IMG/VR virus record: IMGVR_UViG_3300048672_000626 | Location: 1 to 38,290 of that record | Strand: one strand, 5' to 3' | DNA: 38,290 nt | Source of the DNA: a virus | Part shown: positions 10,053-22,859 of the stretch, in pieces | How positions within the stretch are numbered: position 1 is the stretch's first letter | Layout: every line of letters starts with the position of its first letter | The notes under the pieces: generated by a model | The model's database searches: none | What the model was told of the DNA's origin: nothing | The model's input: the letters and a program-made list of their open reading frames with translations, nothing else | Position numbers and translations under genes: made by a program

Positions 10053-12145
10053 TGCATGCCTCCAGGCAAGTTTTGTGGCGCAGTTGCCTGCGTGGGTTCT
10101 TCGTTTTCTGTTGCATCATCAATATCTTCTGCTTCGCCATCGTTTGGCTCCGCCAGTGTATTTGCTACGGCTGATTCAGCAGCTATTTTGTGGAATAAAT
10201 CTGTGGACTCTAGCGCAATCTTATGCTCAACTTCCAAGCGCTTTGTCTGTGCATTGAACCGCTCAATATCAAGTTTATCCTCTGTGCCATCAGCTTTCTT
10301 TAGCGCTGCTTGCAACTCTTGGCTTAAATGCTCTACTTGGTCTGCCATTTGATTCATTTGTTGCACTACTTGCGGATCGGGAGCTTCTCCACCTTCTTCG
10401 CCTTGTTCTGCCTGCAACACTTGAGGCGGCAGCATGGCTTTCATGCGTTTAGCTATCTCTTGCGCTCCAGGCCAATCCATATTTGATACGATTAAATCTC
10501 CAGCTACTTGTAGGATGGCGGGATCGGCTTGCACGAATTGCATCATTGATTCGGCTGCTTCCATGCGCTTAGTCGCATAGCTTGGGCCAGTCTCAACAAC
10601 TACATCATATTTGCCGATGCCTAGATTATAAATGCTTTGAATCTGACCGTTTTCTCCTTGCACTTCGTTCTTTGCTTGCGGTTGGCTAGGGTCAATAGTG
10701 ACGCTCTTTGGTGTACCATCTTCACCCAGCATCCGCGCAATGCGCTTTGCGTCGTAAATCTTTGGAATCATCTCAATAATAACGCGACCCGCATGCTGTA
10801 TTGAGCGTGATAGATTGTCGGCGAAGTGAAAATTCCCTGTACTGGATTGACGCTGCTGGCTTAATATAGCCTTGCCTGACTGATTCGACTCATGGTTGCC
10901 CATAGCAGCATCAAACATGCCCATTGTTGCTTTTATGTCTAGTTCTGCGCGATTCATAGCGGCCTCAAAACCTGGGTTTGTCGATGGCGGTGCTTCGCGT
11001 CTTGGCGGCCCAACGACATTTCCGCCTAACGTAACTGGGTTATACGTTAATACAGATACATTGATTCGGTTAGCATTTTGCCATTCAGCCTCATAGCCAT
11101 CTAACTGACCTTCGGCGGCGATGTACGGCGCTTTAGGCGCCAGGGCTAATGTTTCTGCATTAGCTGACTGAAAGAAGTTATATAACCGCGCAGGGTCTTT
11201 AGCATGGCGAGTCAAGCCATGTAAGTGCCGCTTTCCCTCTATCCAGACTTCCGAGCCATAGACTGGAAATACTGGAATAAAACTGGTCGGCAACTCGGTC
11301 TCTTCAACAATTTGATTGCCAGCAATTTTGTACCACTTGCAGACTCGCTCTTCGCTCATCCTCTCTTTAACGATAAGCTGCTTAAATTCGTCTGGTATTT
11401 CATCTGACCAAGAGACCGATCCGTCTCTTAATTGAGCTAGCTTGCGCGGTCTAATGTCTATCTCAAAATATTCGGCAACTCTTACCGTGTCATCTGTGTA
11501 CCAGCCGATAGAGTCGCCCTGTGCAGCTTGGTTAAAACTGGTTACGTCTGCATCAGGATAGAGCCGCTCAAATTCGTCACGGCTCCATTCCTCGACAATA
11601 ATACACTTAGTTGCGTCGCTGCCGTCTGCTGCGGTCGACTCTGAGTCAAAATAGACTTTAAACGGGTCAACTACCTGCTTAATTTCAATGTCTTGGTCAA
11701 AGCTATCTGGATCGCAATACTTTGTAATCGCTCTAAAATAGCCTAGCCCTGTATCTACTTGCCATTCTGCGGCGGTATCATAAGCAATGGATGCGTTTGA
11801 TACATCTTGTATATGCCGGATAATGCCTTGCAACACCTCAGCTGTATCAACATCGGCCTTGTCATCAACTGGCCTAACTTTGATTGACGGTCTATTTTGC
11901 CTAATCTCATTAATTACCTGATTTCTAAACTGAAAAAGTCTATTGATTGTCAACATAGGGCGCTCAGCGCCTGGACGCTCACGATCACGCTTTACTGACT
12001 CAGGCCATTGTTCACCTAGTCGCACAAACTTAACGTCATCTAGTCGCTCTCTGCGTCCTGCGCTTTCTACATCAGACACAGTACTGAAAAACTTGTGGAC
12101 TTTAGCGATAAATTTTTCTTGTGACTTGTCTTTAGACTTTGCCAT
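10049..12145 (-). CDS. Portal protein (P22 gp1-like)
   Basis: The protein has 698 residues, close to the length I know for P22 gp1. It shows a stem/wing layout with GERPMLTINRLFQFRNQVIN near residue 70 and RQNRPSIKVRPVDDKADVDT soon after, which is typical of P22-like portals. The C-terminal part is Gln/Glu-rich and helical (VVQQMNQMADQVEHLSQELQ), as in the P22 barrel or crown. It forms the dodecameric ring through which terminase pumps DNA. It lies between terL and scaffold. Confidence 0.9.
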   Translation of the reverse strand: MAKSKDKSQEKFIAKVHKFFSTVSDVESAGRRERLDDVKFVRLGEQWPESVKRDRERPGAERPMLTINRLFQFRNQVINEIRQNRPSIKVRPVDDKADVDTAEVLQGIIRHIQDVSNASIAYDTAAEWQVDTGLGYFRAITKYCDPDSFDQDIEIKQVVDPFKVYFDSESTAADGSDATKCIIVEEWSRDEFERLYPDADVTSFNQAAQGDSIGWYTDDTVRVAEYFEIDIRPRKLAQLRDGSVSWSDEIPDEFKQLIVKERMSEERVCKWYKIAGNQIVEETELPTSFIPVFPVYGSEVWIEGKRHLHGLTRHAKDPARLYNFFQSANAETLALAPKAPYIAAEGQLDGYEAEWQNANRINVSVLTYNPVTLGGNVVGPPRREAPPSTNPGFEAAMNRAELDIKATMGMFDAAMGNHESNQSGKAILSQQRQSSTGNFHFADNLSRSIQHAGRVIIEMIPKIYDAKRIARMLGEDGTPKSVTIDPSQPQAKNEVQGENGQIQSIYNLGIGKYDVVVETGPSYATKRMEAAESMMQFVQADPAILQVAGDLIVSNMDWPGAQEIAKRMKAMLPPQVLQAEQGEEGGEAPDPQVVQQMNQMADQVEHLSQELQAALKKADGTEDKLDIERFNAQTKRLEVEHKIALESTDLFHKIAAESAVANTLAEPNDGEAEDIDDATENEEPTQATAPQNLPGGMQ

Positions 12146-15430: not shown

Positions 15431-15583
15431 TTATGTTGTTGTTAAAAGTTTAATCCAATTTTTAAACGCATCGATAGGGCTTCGCCCTTTCACATATCGG
15501 CCCAGTGGATCAATCAATGACCAATAAAATTTACCTTCGTGCAATGTTGCGAATAAATGAGGTTTATGCTTGTTAATCGACAT
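15431..15583 (-). CDS. Hypothetical protein, 50 residues
   Basis: The start ATG at 15583 overlaps the end of the upstream gene by 11 bp. The product (MSINKHKPHLFATLHEGKFY...) contains FYWSLIDPLGRYVKGRSPID and a helical end, the look of a small beta-strand plus helix phage protein. I do not recognise a named family. Position and overlap support it. Confidence 0.5.
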   Translation of the reverse strand: MSINKHKPHLFATLHEGKFYWSLIDPLGRYVKGRSPIDAFKNWIKLLTTT

Positions 15584-15908
15584 CTATTAATCTTCCATTT
15601 TTAACAATCTGATAAGCAATTTTTACATCAGTAGCCCCTTCTGTTTTATGCAAATCATTAACTATTAATGTTGCATAGCCAGATATATTACGCCAACTTT
15701 CTGCATATTGCGGGTCTCCATTTACAATTCTGGCTAAGTTATGGCATATCATTTCTAATGCCTCTTGCTGCGCAATTGTAAAAATTGCCGGATTATTATC
15801 ATGCGCTGCTATTAATATATCTTTTAACTGCCTAGATACTTTTGCATTTTTATTAAAATCGCCATGACAAAACTCACGATCAAGCAGTGTTTTATTTATA
15901 TCATTCAT
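15573..15908 (-). CDS. DUF6378-like phage protein
   Basis: The protein has 111 residues. The pattern HGDFNKNAKVSRQLKDIL, then QQEALEMICHNLARIVNGD and ESWRNISGYATLIVNDL, matches what I remember of the DUF6378 family, common in phage accessory regions (HGDFxxNAxxSxxLK, then EALxMIxHKxARIxxG and DIAGYAxL). The all-helical design with conserved His and Asp recalls MazG-like nucleotide pyrophosphatases, but this is only a suggestion. ATGA overlap with the zinc-ribbon gene upstream. Confidence 0.7.
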   Translation of the reverse strand: MNDINKTLLDREFCHGDFNKNAKVSRQLKDILIAAHDNNPAIFTIAQQEALEMICHNLARIVNGDPQYAESWRNISGYATLIVNDLHKTEGATDVKIAYQIVKNGRLIDVD

Positions 15909-18407: not shown

Positions 18408-18527
18408 TTAGAAGCTTAAAAAAATTAACCCTCCACGGAATTTTTTAAGCTGCGTGTATTTTAGCATAGCCAACAATAAAAACAATATTAATATTAAAAA
18501 CAATAAAAAAATACCCGCCTGTGACAT
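18408..18527 (-). CDS. Tiny membrane protein, 39 residues, with hairpin-buried ribosome site
   Basis: ATG 18527 is preceded by GAGGGGGG five bases upstream, an unusually strong ribosome site. The product starts MSQAGIFLLFLILILFLLLA, a single hydrophobic helix, followed by a basic tail (KYTQLKKFRGG). The ribosome site is one arm of a 14-bp perfect hairpin (18526-18556), so translation could be controlled by melting it. The AT-rich DNA here could also create such an ORF by chance. Confidence 0.4.
   Translation of the reverse strand: MSQAGIFLLFLILILFLLLAMLKYTQLKKFRGGLIFLSF
18413..18451 (-). other. Hairpin with loop complementary to the terminator loop
   Basis: The arms 18414-18426 and 18439-18451 pair over about 12 bp with one bulged base. 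The 12-base loop carries GTGGAG on the minus strand. This equals the complement of the six-base terminator loop CTCCAC at 18379-18384, so the two hairpins could form a kissing complex. GTGGAGGG is also ribosome-site-like and contains GGA, as CsrA sites do. Confidence 0.5.
18458..18485 (-). promoter_or_regulatory. Possible minus-strand promoter in the origin region
   Basis: Read on the minus strand there is TTGTTT (18485-18480), a 16-bp spacer and TGC-TAAAAT (-10 at 18463-18458), an extended -10. It would start an RNA of about 90 bases at about 18451 that contains the two kissing-type hairpins and ends at the terminator 18359. It lies inside the tiny membrane-protein ORF, so at most one of the two readings may be functional. 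Confidence 0.35.
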
Positions 18528-18712
18528 ATACCCCCCTCTTATAGAGGGGGGTATATATTGAACGGGTTGTGACATAATGTCACAGTGGTCTAAAATAATT
18601 ATGTCACACATAAAATATCAACAAAATCAATAACTTAAAATATGCTGTGACAACGTGTGACATAATTACAAAATTAATTATGTCACAGGCGTTATTTTTG
18701 CATTATGTCACA
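18480..18712. other. Candidate replication origin with TGTGACATAAT iterons
   Basis: Copies of TGTGACATAAT lie at 18568-18578 and 18656-18666 (plus) and 18598-18608, 18677-18687 and 18702-18712 (minus). Partial copies lie at 18520 and 18646. At 18568-18584 two copies merge into the perfect palindrome TGTGACATAATGTCACA. At 18656-18687 two 12-bp arms face each other across 8 bp. An AT-rich tract (18473-18513) adjoins. The array abuts the 3' end of the primase/helicase gene, a usual place for a phage origin. The binding protein is not identified. Confidence 0.65.
18526..18556. repeat. Perfect 14-bp inverted repeat (C6/G6 hairpin)
   Basis: ATATACCCCCCTCT (18526-18539) and AGAGGGGGGTATAT (18543-18556) are perfect complements around a three-base TAT loop. 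Further out, ACCCG (18513-18517) can pair with CGGGT (18563-18567). In an AT-rich genome this is a very strong extrudable hairpin, lying among the iterons. Confidence 0.9.
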
Positions 18713-18716
18713 CCGA

Positions 18717-20462
18717 TTACTTCAATATAAATAAAAACTCATTATCTATCAATAATTTATGTCTTTCTTCGTATTTTTTGTAAAAACGACTTAATGCCTG
18801 CCTAACAGCGTCATTCTTTAATAAAGACCGCTCTTTAAAAATAGTAGCAACATACGATTTTCTGCATCCAATGCCATTTTTAGTTGTGATTGGGTCATCA
18901 TCAATCGCTAAATTAATACAATCCCATATCAACGCATCATGCTCATTCGGCCTTCCTATAGGATTATAATCAATATCATCCATGACTAAGCTAGTAGACT
19001 CCGAGCCGTCCTGATTTAACATACCTAGTTCAACAACCCTGGCAATAGCGGTAATTTCTTCAAAATCATCACCATCCTTACTTTTAATGCTAGCTAGTGA
19101 GGTTTCTTTAGATTCTCTATTTTTTCTAGTCAATGTCATAATAAAATCGCTGTTATCTTTAAATGCACTCGCCCCACGTACGCCTTTTTCTGAGTCTTTA
19201 CCAAAATGATGCACAATAATTGAACTGGTATAGCCATTTGATAGATGCGATTTTAAAAAAGACAGCGCACTAGCCACATCGCTATTATCATTCTCATTGG
19301 TATTGCTATTCATACTGCTAAACGTGTCAAAAATAACCAAGGCTGGTCGTAATTCTTGTAGTTGTATTGCCAGGTCTTTTATGTCGTTTTCATTGTCTAT
19401 GCTTATTTTTTGGTCAAGGACAAGCAACCTGCCATCAAACCCTCCTTTAACTAACGACAGAGCCTTAATGCGGCGACTAAGCGCCGTCTTGCCTTCCCCG
19501 CACACATAAACAACTAACCCTGTTTCAAAACATTTCTTTTTAAAAAAATCAGAACCAGTGCAAATGCTATGTGCCATCCTCAAAATCATGAATGACTTGT
19601 ATGCACCGGATGCGCCTGCCAACATGCCATGGCTATCACGCTCTAATACGTGATTGATTAGATAATCAGCTGGCTTAGCAATCATTGCCAAGTCATCGGC
19701 GCTACTGAATGATAAGCGGGAATTTGGCTTATTCAATACCAACCTATCGAAATCTTCCTTGCTTCCCGCCCAATCTGAAACGTCCTTTCCGCTTGGTATT
19801 GTTATAGTTTCGATCGAACGTGCGATGCCAGACAACCCAGTGCGAACCTTATTAGCAAATAAGCGCCCTGGATCATCGTTATCGGGACAAATATAAACAT
19901 CAGCCCCGTGAAAAATGCTATTGAACTCAGCAGGCCAAGAACCGGAGCCATTAGGTGGTGACGTGCAAATGTAGCCATAGTTTTTAATGATAAAATCACA
20001 ATCTTTTTCACCTTCGGTAATGATTACCGTCTTGTTTTTAATATCGTTGAGCGTATGGCGCATATAAAGCGGCGATTCAGCGCCATTTTTACCTGGAACG
20101 CGCCGCCCATCCACGTCATGGAATAGGCTGAAAAACTTAGGTTCATAGCGCACTTTTTCAAACAATACTTCGCCGTCTACATCCGTGTAAAAATAACTGC
20201 ACACTTCTTGGCGCGGCCTATTGTCTTTATGTCTTGGTTCTTCTTTTTTTAGCTCAGGCAAATAACCTGCGTCTTTAATATAGTTAAACAGATCTTTCTG
20301 GTCGCACCCAGCTTTGCAGTGAAATATTAGTGATTGTTTATCGCCATATGCTATGTCCAACGACGGGTTAGTATCTGGATGTAACGGGCAAAGGCATTTC
20401 CATCCTTTCCCGCATTTTTTGGCGCCCCCTAGTTTTGAGGCGACTTGATAAGCTAAGTCCAT
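18717..20462 (-). CDS. Replicative primase/helicase (CHC2 zinc finger, TOPRIM, RepA-like ATPase)
   Basis: The protein has 581 residues. A zinc finger of the CHC2 type is formed by C25, H28 and the HCKAGC pair (C49, C53). A TOPRIM domain follows with VIITEGEKD (Glu150) and CPDNDD (Asp194, Asp196). A RecA-like helicase domain has a Walker A, GASGAYKS, at 283-290 with Tyr in place of the usual second Gly, a variant I also know from RepA-like phage proteins. Walker B is LVIFDTFSS. The C-terminus is probably a winged helix. It starts 4 bp after the methylase gene. With no phage DNA polymerase found, it probably loads host replication proteins at the adjoining origin. Confidence 0.9.
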   Translation of the reverse strand: MDLAYQVASKLGGAKKCGKGWKCLCPLHPDTNPSLDIAYGDKQSLIFHCKAGCDQKDLFNYIKDAGYLPELKKEEPRHKDNRPRQEVCSYFYTDVDGEVLFEKVRYEPKFFSLFHDVDGRRVPGKNGAESPLYMRHTLNDIKNKTVIITEGEKDCDFIIKNYGYICTSPPNGSGSWPAEFNSIFHGADVYICPDNDDPGRLFANKVRTGLSGIARSIETITIPSGKDVSDWAGSKEDFDRLVLNKPNSRLSFSSADDLAMIAKPADYLINHVLERDSHGMLAGASGAYKSFMILRMAHSICTGSDFFKKKCFETGLVVYVCGEGKTALSRRIKALSLVKGGFDGRLLVLDQKISIDNENDIKDLAIQLQELRPALVIFDTFSSMNSNTNENDNSDVASALSFLKSHLSNGYTSSIIVHHFGKDSEKGVRGASAFKDNSDFIMTLTRKNRESKETSLASIKSKDGDDFEEITAIARVVELGMLNQDGSESTSLVMDDIDYNPIGRPNEHDALIWDCINLAIDDDPITTKNGIGCRKSYVATIFKERSLLKNDAVRQALSRFYKKYEERHKLLIDNEFLFILK

Positions 20463-20465
20463 AGA

Positions 20466-21359
20466 TTAATCTCTGTTGCAAAACAGCTTTTCAACTACTT
20501 TTTTATTGTTATTTGTTGACGATAAAGTGCCTCTATGCTCTATTCCATAAACGCACTTAAGCGGCGATTCATAACTGCTCAGATAGATTTTATAAGGACT
20601 TTTTTCTATGTAGTCATGCAGCGCATCATGACAAATATTGTTATTGTATTTTGCTGTATTAAAATACGGCGGATCAAGATATATAATTGTTTCGTCGATT
20701 GGCGTTGTTATTTCAACACAGGCATAACTTTTGTTTGATAGGCTAAAATTTACTTTTGTTTTTAATTGCTCCAGCCGCTCCAACCGCTCCAACTGCTCCA
20801 ACTGCTGCAAATTGATACGCTTAATCGACTTAATATATTTCATAACAGATAGACGGCGCTCATTGATGCTTTCGCTACTAAGCAAGCTATCATTAATTAT
20901 TATTCCGGTAATGTCTGTAAAATGGCATCGAGCATCAAATGATTTATAAACAATAATGTCGTGCAATATTCGTTTTTTTTCTTCTATTGATTTTGCAAAA
21001 ATATAAGATTTACCAATATTTCCAAAGCTCCAGCATGTTTTAGCAAAGCCAGAACGCCATCCGTTTCCCTGTTTTAATTCAAAGAATTCTTCTCTGCTTA
21101 TCCATTTGTAAAACTCATGCGTAATTCCATCTGATTGTATTTTTTGTAGCAAATTAACAATACTTTCATCTATTTCATTGTAAAAAACCTGCTTAATCCG
21201 TTCGTGCTGCGAAAATTCAAAACTCATTGCACCGCCGCCACCGAATAGGTCATAAACGTATTTGCAATTTGGATTTTCATTAAGCATAAAATTAACTAAT
21301 TTTTCTGATAATTGACGCTTCCCGCCCATATAGGGTAAGCCTAGTTTTTTTAATTTCAT
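20466..21359 (-). CDS. DNA N6-adenine methyltransferase (D12/Dam class)
   Basis: The protein has 297 residues. The AdoMet-binding region shows PYMGGKRQL at residues 9-17 and DLFGGGG at 37-43. The catalytic motif is DPPY at 229-232. The order matches Dam/D12 class adenine methylases. A Leu/Glu/Arg/Gln repeat (residues 185-199) lies before the catalytic motif. It is translated together with the ribbon-helix-helix protein (ATGA overlap) and the primase. Possible jobs are protection from host restriction or control of origin use; the target sequence cannot be read here. Confidence 0.9.
   Translation of the reverse strand: MKLKKLGLPYMGGKRQLSEKLVNFMLNENPNCKYVYDLFGGGGAMSFEFSQHERIKQVFYNEIDESIVNLLQKIQSDGITHEFYKWISREEFFELKQGNGWRSGFAKTCWSFGNIGKSYIFAKSIEEKKRILHDIIVYKSFDARCHFTDITGIIINDSLLSSESINERRLSVMKYIKSIKRINLQQLEQLERLERLEQLKTKVNFSLSNKSYACVEITTPIDETIIYLDPPYFNTAKYNNNICHDALHDYIEKSPYKIYLSSYESPLKCVYGIEHRGTLSSTNNNKKVVEKLFCNRD
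20768..20809. repeat. 9-bp tandem repeat inside the methylase gene
   Basis: GCTCCAGCC, GCTCCAACC and two copies of GCTCCAACT run in series at 20768-20803, with a degenerate fifth copy starting GCTGCA. On the coding strand they give LEQLERLERLEQL. Each unit is three codons, so changes in copy number keep the frame. Confidence 0.85.
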
Positions 21360-21511
21360 TTCATATCATCCCGTTCAGCATAAAAATTTGTTACTATATA
21401 GGTTAGCAGCTCCGACACAGATAATTGTTGTCTATCCGCTTCTTTTTTTACTAGCGCCATTAGCGGCACTGGCAATAATACATGCACCCTGTCTTTTTTA
21501 GTTCGCTTCAT
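21356..21511 (-). CDS. Small ribbon-helix-helix-like protein, 51 residues
   Basis: The ORF starts at ATG 21511 (MKRTKKDRVHVLLPVPLMAL) with AGGAT upstream. It has a basic N-terminus, a strand-like VHVLLPVP segment, then helices VKKEADRQQLSVSELLTYIV, the layout of a ribbon-helix-helix DNA-binding protein. Its stop overlaps the methylase start by ATGA. It is the first gene of the replication operon and faces a divergent early promoter, so it may be an autoregulator or a binder of the origin boxes. Confidence 0.65.
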   Translation of the reverse strand: MKRTKKDRVHVLLPVPLMALVKKEADRQQLSVSELLTYIVTNFYAERDDMK

Positions 21512-21851: not shown

Positions 21852-22249
21852 GTGACTACAAACCAACCGAATTAGACATTTTTAAGGCAGAATATTATGC
21901 TGAAAAGCTTAAGCGACCTGATCCTTGGCGTGATGTTGAATACCGACACGCAGACTATCGAAAAAATACATGGTGCCAAATAAGCGGCGACCCGATGTTC
22001 AGCTCTGGATGTACATACCGATGGAAAATGCCAACAATCAAAGTAAACGGCGCTAATGTGCCGGCACCTGTTATAGAGAAAAGAAATAATGAATCACGGT
22101 GGAGGCTATGTCTTGAAGATGTCAGCAGGAATAAATCATATTGCCATAGAGAAAATGAGCCATTATTTACAAAATTTGATGATGCAAAAGAATATTTGAA
22201 AGAAGCAATAAAGCCAGCAATTGACTACATAAACAAAAATAAATATTGA
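21848..22249 (+). CDS. Hypothetical protein, 133 residues
   Basis: The protein (MSDYKPTELDIFKAEYYAEK...) is polar, with RPDPWRDVEYRHADYRKNTW and WCQISGDPMFSSGCTYRWKM. That recalls a motif common in phage hypothetical proteins in which a Trp/Arg-rich core surrounds paired Cys residues. No function is known to me. It is coupled to the previous gene and precedes the long structured non-coding region. Confidence 0.6.
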   Translation: MSDYKPTELDIFKAEYYAEKLKRPDPWRDVEYRHADYRKNTWCQISGDPMFSSGCTYRWKMPTIKVNGANVPAPVIEKRNNESRWRLCLEDVSRNKSYCHRENEPLFTKFDDAKEYLKEAIKPAIDYINKNKY

Positions 22250-22273
22250 TAAAATTATTATATTAAGTATAAT
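22246..22273 (+). promoter_or_regulatory. Predicted promoter for the 22280 RNA
   Basis: TTGATA (22246-22251), a 16-bp spacer and a consensus TATAAT (22268-22273). The -35 overlaps the end of the upstream gene. Transcription would start near 22280, just where the paired region begins. Confidence 0.6.
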
Positions 22274-22279
22274 ATCTAA

Positions 22280-22450
22280 AAAGGTGGAGAGTAGCTGACT
22301 TAAACAGCCTGGTTATCGGATTGTTGCCGTGGTGCGTATACGCAAAATCATTACCACAAAACACCGAGGATATAGATAGAGCGCTCCTTATAACCTTACT
22401 CTAGGCTATATCAAAACCGTGCCAATCCGGTATATGATTGGCATTTTTTT
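22280..22450 (+). ncRNA. Candidate stand-alone structured RNA with competing helices
   Basis: No ORF of note is present. Helices that can form are AGAGTA/TACTCT (22288-22293 with 22397-22402), GGTTAT/ATAACC (22311-22316 with 22390-22395) and GTGGT/ACCAC (22329-22333 with 22353-22357) around the palindrome GCGTATACGC. GATATAG/CTATATC (22369-22375 with 22406-22412) crosses two of these. CGGATTG (22317-22323) can pair with CAATCCG (22423-22429), which overlaps the terminator stem. A promoter precedes it and an intrinsic terminator ends it. It could be a small RNA, an attenuator or a ligand-sensing element. Confidence 0.6.
22420..22450 (+). terminator. Intrinsic terminator ending the 22280 RNA
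   Basis: TGCCAAT (22420-22426) and ATTGGCA (22437-22443) pair around a 10-base loop and are followed by seven T (22444-22450). The 5' arm can instead pair with CGGATTG upstream, so it could be switched. Confidence 0.85.
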
Positions 22451-22477
22451 AATTGTTTTAATAAATAGAATTATTAA

Positions 22478-22656
22478 TAAAACACACTGGACGATCCGGG
22501 GCTCGCTCGGATATGGAATAAGAAATATACGGTAAACGCGATAATCCCGGTGATCTAAAGATGGCTGAATGCTGGAGTCATGACCAGAAGAAAGCCTGAA
22601 GATAGGTGTATTCCTATCTCCGATGTAGTATTCGTCTACGAAAACAGTGTGTTTTA
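22478..22656 (+). ncRNA. Candidate structured RNA closed by a 12-bp helix
   Basis: TAAAACACACTG (22478-22489) and CAGTGTGTTTTA (22645-22656) are perfect complements 155 bases apart. Inside, GATCCGGG (22493-22500) pairs with CCCGG..ATC downstream with a two-base bulge. Three local hairpins follow: GGC/GCC with CTGG/CCAG, GATAGG/CCTATC and GTAG/CTAC. It lies after a terminator and 38 bases before the start of the 54-residue gene at 22695, so it may be that gene's leader. It matches no riboswitch or ribozyme consensus I know. Confidence 0.6.
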
Positions 22657-22694
22657 CTAATATACTAGCAGATTAAATATAAGTAGGAAAAATT

Positions 22695-22859
22695 ATGCAA
22701 ACAAGAAAAGGTCAGCCAGTTTTGCTATATACCGAAACATGGTATCGATTAAAACGGTATTTAATAGAAAATATTGAGCATAAATTAAAGATGCAAGATG
22801 TAGTTGCCGATGCGGTTAATAATTACCTGGATAATAAAAATGCAAACAAAAATAGATAG
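22695..22859 (+). CDS. Small protein, 54 residues, possible DNA-binding
   Basis: The ORF starts MQTRKGQPVLLYTETWYRLK after the ribosome site AGGA. It has a strand-like PVLLYTE segment and helices (RLKRYLIENIEHK and MQDVVADAVNNYLDN), like a short ribbon-helix-helix protein. It is the first gene after the two RNA-like elements and overlaps the next gene by 20 bp. The function is not known. Confidence 0.55.
   Translation: MQTRKGQPVLLYTETWYRLKRYLIENIEHKLKMQDVVADAVNNYLDNKNANKNR

Follow-up and report, generated by a model that had tools for sequence, protein, structure and literature searches.

What is the structured segment that separates the early leader promoter from the first gene of the recombination and replication operon in this phage, and what might it do? 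The window, that is, the whole stretch of DNA analysed here, is a virus record of 38,290 bases that encodes a P22-like podovirus. Its structural genes include those for TerL, the portal and an Hc3 head-closure protein, and its replication/recombination region carries primase-helicase, DNA methyltransferase, Sak4-like, SSB-like, Gam-like, HNH and helicase genes; the window as a whole has no tRNA or tmRNA gene. The leader lies in a noncoding gap of 445 nt, which extends from the end of a 133-aa ORF (22249) to the start of a 54-aa gene (22695). This gap houses two structured elements, designated RNA1 and RNA2, of which RNA2 stands just 5' of the first gene of the operon. The features of the locus are the following.

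22246 to 22273, plus strand: sigma70-type promoter of the leader, TTGATA-16-TATAAT, a consensus match only (11 of 12 positions); hexamers and spacing are identical in the related phage G022 (L218:615-642)
22276 to 22452, plus strand: RNA1, a conserved, structured leader RNA with an intrinsic terminator at its end (22419-22451); 78% identity in G022, 5' domain also in G021, two compensatory pairs
22472 to 22489, plus strand: 5' arm of the RNA2 closing helix, with a 12-bp perfect core at 22478-22489 (inverted repeat)
22493 to 22555, plus strand: RNA2 helix P2 (GAU/AUC, CCGGGG/UCCCGG, UCGC/GCGA), pair probabilities 0.41-0.97
22563 to 22596, plus strand: RNA2 hairpin P3 (GGCU/AGCC and CUGG/CCAG, with a purine-rich internal loop), pair probabilities 0.98-1.0
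22600 to 22619, plus strand: RNA2 hairpin P4 (AGAUAGG/CCUAUCU), pair probabilities 0.88-1.0
22625 to 22639, plus strand: RNA2 hairpin P5 (GUAG/CUAC), pair probability 0.65
22645 to 22662, plus strand: 3' arm of the RNA2 closing helix, core at 22645-22656 (inverted repeat)
22663 to 22694, plus strand: AT-rich spacer with the ribosome-binding site (AAGTAGGA); relatives keep a helix-to-start distance of 28-38 nt
22695 to 22859, plus strand: first gene of the operon, 54 aa, ribbon-helix-helix-like by eye, 81% identical in G022, no PHROG match

The product of this first gene and that of a second small gene (21356-21511, minus strand), also ribbon-helix-helix-like by eye, flank the divergent early promoter region; both are possible regulators.

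RNA2 had been described as a multi-stem RNA-like element closed by a perfect 12-bp helix. The two arms of this helix, TAAAACACACTG (22478-22489) and CAGTGTGTTTTA (22645-22656), are indeed present and fully complementary, with 155 nt between them. Beyond a single A.C mismatch the repeat runs on to TATTAATAAAACACACTG/CAGTGTGTTTTACTAATA (22472-22489/22645-22662), which brings it to 17 pairs out of 18. The claim that a 12-bp match is unlikely by chance holds within the gap, where 14 of 2000 dinucleotide shuffles attain it, but not over the 38-kb window, in which about 1.0 such repeat is expected, so that on its own the 12-mer is no more than moderately unusual. The extended 17/18-bp repeat is reached by none of 1000 gap shuffles, and the case is firmer than first described. 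A second perfect 12-bp inverted repeat (GCAATTTTTACA), of which about one is expected by chance, is found at 15616-15627/15777-15788, within a minus-strand ORF (15573-15908).

Folding of the whole element surpasses that of all 200 shuffles on each strand (z of -4.0 on the plus and -5.4 on the minus strand), most of the excess being supplied by the closing helix. Without it, the interior has a z of -1.66 on the plus strand (55 of 1000 shuffles are as good, p ~0.055) and of -2.57 on the minus strand (11 of 1000). The interior hairpins by themselves are therefore weakly significant on the plus strand. The 8-bp helix and three hairpins that were said to fit inside without clash are mutually compatible, the two central ones being firm (pair probability ~1.0); the 3'-most hairpin is weaker (0.65), as are the three outermost pairs of the first helix (~0.45). 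An alternative pairing of P2, AUCCG/CGGAU, was rejected, its probability as a nested fold being <0.01. RNA1 and RNA2 have a GC content of 43-44% (44% for RNA2 itself), against 6-7% in the upstream flanks (6% for that of RNA2) and 21% downstream. The placement given by the original prediction is also borne out: RNA2 begins 20-30 nt past the RNA1 terminator and leaves 38 nt between its end and the ATG at 22695, or 32 nt if measured from the extended helix. The fold statistics, the GC contrast, the leader position and the occurrence of independent elements of the same build in the equivalent place of four relatives (see below) all support a structured multi-stem element.

The plus strand is favoured as the functional one by the location of RNA2 in a plus-strand operon, by the richness of its unpaired positions in A and G (A38 G20 U24 C9; the A-skew of this strand is general in the region) and by better plus-strand folding in five of the six elements found in this phage and its relatives. 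RNA2 is the one that prefers the minus strand, because its lone A.C mismatch turns into G.U there.

Does RNA2 belong to a known family? No match to Rfam 15, with its riboswitches, self-cleaving ribozymes and phage RNAs, was found anywhere in the window at the gathering score, and all matches at E up to 10 lie far below that score; the equivalents of RNA2 in G022 and G032 are likewise without an Rfam match. Blastn against phage and plasmid records detects no sequence homologue. Exact patterns derived from RNA2 give no credible match in IMG/VR viral and GTDB genome contigs (six genome matches were set aside as chance coding matches), and neither does an RNA2 covariance model run over the related phage loci, their whole records, the loci of the pattern hits and 369 genomes of one class. 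The original prediction took a conserved protein-coding frame as the outcome that would speak against an RNA; the slot carries no conserved ORF. It also suggested assays for self-cleavage or ligand binding, a lead that gains nothing from Rfam or from the equivalent slots of relatives, which share no common core. There is thus no evidence for a ribozyme or riboswitch identity.

The relatives were recovered by means of a portal-gene search, searches with Sak4, helicase and TerL having yielded no near relatives. G022 (L217/L218) is syntenic with the window, with homologues of the 133-aa ORF, of RNA1 (78%), of the 54-aa gene (81%) and of Sak4 (76% identity). In the slot of RNA2 it carries an unrelated segment of 137 nt, Y (L218:920-1056), with a perfect 20-bp closing helix, four internal hairpins and a fold z of about -8 to -9. 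The sequence of the slot is thus wholly replaced, although the adjoining sequence on both sides is 78-81% conserved. In G021 an element of 15 perfect closing pairs, X (L215:998-1076), lies 32 nt 5' of the first gene. This gene differs from that of the window, indicating that the element tracks the position of the first gene rather than one particular gene. X recurs in G022 (L218:849-911), 5' of Y, with a helix that is partly decayed and includes G.U pairs. Comparison of the two copies of X shows strong conservation of the interior (the CAGTTATTTATCCATGACTG hairpin) and divergence of the closing arms. Further along in G021 (L215:1378-1665), about 45 tandem GGTCTN-type hexamers encode a (Leu-Gly)n run in frame with the small gene ahead of Sak4.

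The more distant G023 and G032 have a leader of ~600 nt with terminators and two helix-closed elements, E4 and E6. E6 ends ~34 nt 5' of the first gene, and in G023 it is closed by a 20-bp helix with one G.U. Its interior is identical in G032, and five of the 20 arm pairs differ: one change is compensatory (G-C to A-U), one turns G.U into A-U and three break the pairing, which leaves G032 with a decayed helix. This amounts to modest covariation between two sequences only. E4 carries CAGGTTATCGG, which resembles a motif of RNA1. In G032 a structured segment ending in a T-run lies 5' of E4 (L224:11359-11442, with an equivalent on the minus strand of L220), preceded by a second promoter-like site (11325-11352). 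No sequence similarity is seen between RNA2 and any of X, Y, E4 and E6. The architecture is shared: a structured leader with one or more terminators is followed by a multi-hairpin segment, richer in GC and closed off by a long helix, and ~30-38 nt further on by the first start codon. Since the slot is kept with entirely different sequence, its shape and position would seem to matter rather than its letters.

This pattern was put to statistical tests. The longest helix that ends at most 60 nt from the first start codon beats 150 of 150 shuffles in each of four genomes (the window, G021, G022 and G023), in which 28-38 nt separate the end of the helix from the start codon; the result for G032 is borderline. 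A genome-wide scan of six phage genomes (the window and five relatives) for inverted repeats with arms of 16 bp or longer, no more than one mismatch and 25-200 nt between the arms yields two kinds of structure only: iteron-like arrays with AT-rich interiors, and leader elements with interiors of 44-57% GC. Leader elements are found in four of the six genomes. The scan detects no such repeat in G030, in which the early leader was not located either. A looser scan for helix-closed elements in intergenic gaps does not separate real from shuffled sequence (9 of 84 against 38 of 420), because its criteria are loose and, in the relatives, the gaps of interest were masked by the ORF caller; the stricter inverted-repeat tests do separate them. 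We infer selection on the presence of a long helix shortly 5' of the first ribosome-binding site and not on its letters.

The iteron-like repeats of the window (18511-18720) lie beside the primase-helicase gene, comprise several direct and inverted copies of TTATGTCACA/TGTGACATAA and a strong hairpin, CCCCCCTCTTATAGAGGGGGG, and make up its strongest local fold. They are a candidate replication origin. G022, G023 and G032 carry repeat arrays of their own.

The element that precedes RNA2 was also part of the original prediction and is well supported by its promoter-like site, its terminator, its conservation in three phages and two compensatory pairs. RNA1 spans 22276-22452 in the window, L218:646-840 in G022 and L215:748-1000 in G021. 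It has no Rfam match, nor any further homologue in the related phage loci or the 369 genomes. The loop of its terminator, CCGGUA, is complementary by eye to the conserved UAUCGG of the 5' domain (UACCGG/CCGGUU in the G021 version), and the two could form a long-range contact.

What, then, might RNA2 do? It stands 3' of the RNA1 terminator, with the leader's sole strong promoter-like site on one side and the first gene on the other, so that its transcription as part of the early mRNA is to be expected. We tentatively favour, at somewhat less than even confidence, a cis-acting element in the 5' leader of the early recombination/replication mRNA, and we infer that it would most likely serve as a domain for RNase III-type processing or for insulation. 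The helix would fold during synthesis of the leader, and a double-strand-specific RNase of the host would bind or cut it. This would detach the bulky RNA1 leader from the early mRNA, which would keep a short 5' UTR with its ribosome site accessible; the RNA inside the helix would be excised. For an element of this type one would look for a helix of some 12 bp or longer within the leader of an mRNA, close to the gene start and with the ribosome site free; RNA2 offers 12 perfect pairs (17/18 when extended), 32-38 nt from the ATG (28-34 nt in G022, G021 and G023). For RNase III of E. coli, a stem of 12 bp is sufficient (PMC8708148). Counting against this leader-processing function are the minus-strand preference of RNA2 itself, its marginal interior fold, the decayed helix of G032 and the failure to detect the repeat in G030, where the early leader itself was not located.

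Two known systems offer parallels. The RNase III sites of T7 early mRNA (R1.1 and others) are double-stranded segments that lie between early RNA regions and define mRNA ends (PMC8708148). RNA2 would likewise be a double-stranded segment in a phage early RNA. However, the T7 sites are single irregular hairpins, whereas RNA2 is a long helix around several hairpins. In lambda, RNase III reportedly controls the nutL-N segment (work ascribed to Wilson et al., 2002). The interval from nutL to N is highly structured (PMC5725501). The lambda N leader shares with that of the window the order of its parts: a promoter comes first, a conserved regulatory RNA makes up the 5' end, and a long structured segment leads to the first gene. 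Unlike it, RNA2 is multi-branched, closed by a long helix and turns over in sequence among relatives; the parallel is one of layout, and any tie to N, boxA or boxB, like the action of RNase III on RNA2, is hypothetical.

An alternative, which we consider unlikely, though the foremost of the rivals, sees the product in the RNA within the helix, which would be a stable small RNA of the phage, acting as regulator, decoy or inhibitor and cut out by way of the closing helix; the slot would then be a cassette position that gives each phage a small RNA of its own. It would fit interiors that are wholly different among relatives between conserved neighbours, and the two elements that G022 retains in tandem. 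P22 expresses six small RNAs that sit just 5' of genes on the same strand (PMC13397905), a position that RNA2 shares in a P22-type phage. The P22 small RNAs P22A-J are, however, reported to be identically maintained in further phages (PMC13397905), whereas RNA2 has no sequence relative here; the two are set apart by description and not by sequence comparison. Moreover, RNA2 is flanked on the plus strand by neither a promoter-like site nor a terminator of its own, and no conserved core that could carry a function is seen.

The structure may also operate in DNA, as a palindromic, MITE-like cassette bounded by terminal inverted repeats or as paired operator or replication sites, RNA folding being incidental. 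RNA2 does have terminal inverted repeats, and the presence/absence pattern, the perfect repeats, the complete turnover of sequence in one slot and the mismatch that is A.C on the plus and G.U on the minus strand would all agree with such an element. Nevertheless, we regard it as rather improbable. The arms have no extra copies in the window beyond chance, and no multiple copies are found in phages, plasmids, IMG/VR patterns or the 369 sampled genomes, a survey that is not exhaustive. No target-site duplication is seen by eye in the flanks, for which there is no true empty site to compare. Multi-hairpin, GC-richer interiors at a fixed distance from the start codon would be unexpected. In addition, both X in G022 and E6 in G023 contain G.U pairs.

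Marginally less probable still is a transcription element, a put-like or Rho-blocking RNA that together with RNA1 would let polymerase past the leader terminator(s). A terminator does stand between the sole strong promoter-like site of the leader and the genes, no later promoter-like site is found on the plus strand, and the G032 and G023 leaders have several terminators. Antiterminators of the put type suppress termination through the beta' zinc-binding domain of RNA polymerase. That of HK022, also a structured RNA within an early-operon leader, is ~70 nt long with two stem-loops (PMC9378689). RNA2 is unlike it, being 179-191 nt long with a closing helix of 12-18 bp and four internal hairpins; moreover, HK022 put has shared sequence, whereas the sequence of RNA2 is not conserved. 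Located downstream of the RNA1 terminator, RNA2 cannot act on that terminator, and no strong intergenic terminators are found further downstream on the plus strand. A role of this kind would better suit RNA1, which is conserved and opens the leader.

A chance inverted repeat in an AT-rich spacer is very improbable: although about one 12-bp repeat is expected per window and the interior is marginal on the plus strand, the 17/18-bp extension missing from 1000 shuffles and the GC contrast with the flanks speak against it, and the equivalent architecture at the equivalent place in relatives has largely refuted it.

Structured phage RNAs are usually found by conserved sequence or covariation, and structured, processed early leaders are known in phages. 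To our knowledge, no slot has been described that keeps a helix-closed, multi-hairpin architecture despite wholesale replacement of its sequence. A broader conjecture, to which we give a low probability, is that the phages of this group share, in their early leaders, a slot in which helix-closed RNA cassettes are interchangeable. Each phage would place there a different multi-hairpin RNA, excised by cleavage of the closing helix and having a phage-specific job, and only architecture and position would be conserved. If this is true, this class of phage noncoding RNA escapes searches that are based on sequence or covariation. RNA1, present in three phages and without an Rfam family, is open to covariation testing as relatives accumulate. 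If confirmed, elements conserved in architecture only would be a blind spot of RNA family databases, and they would offer a simple handle on the processing of phage early leaders.
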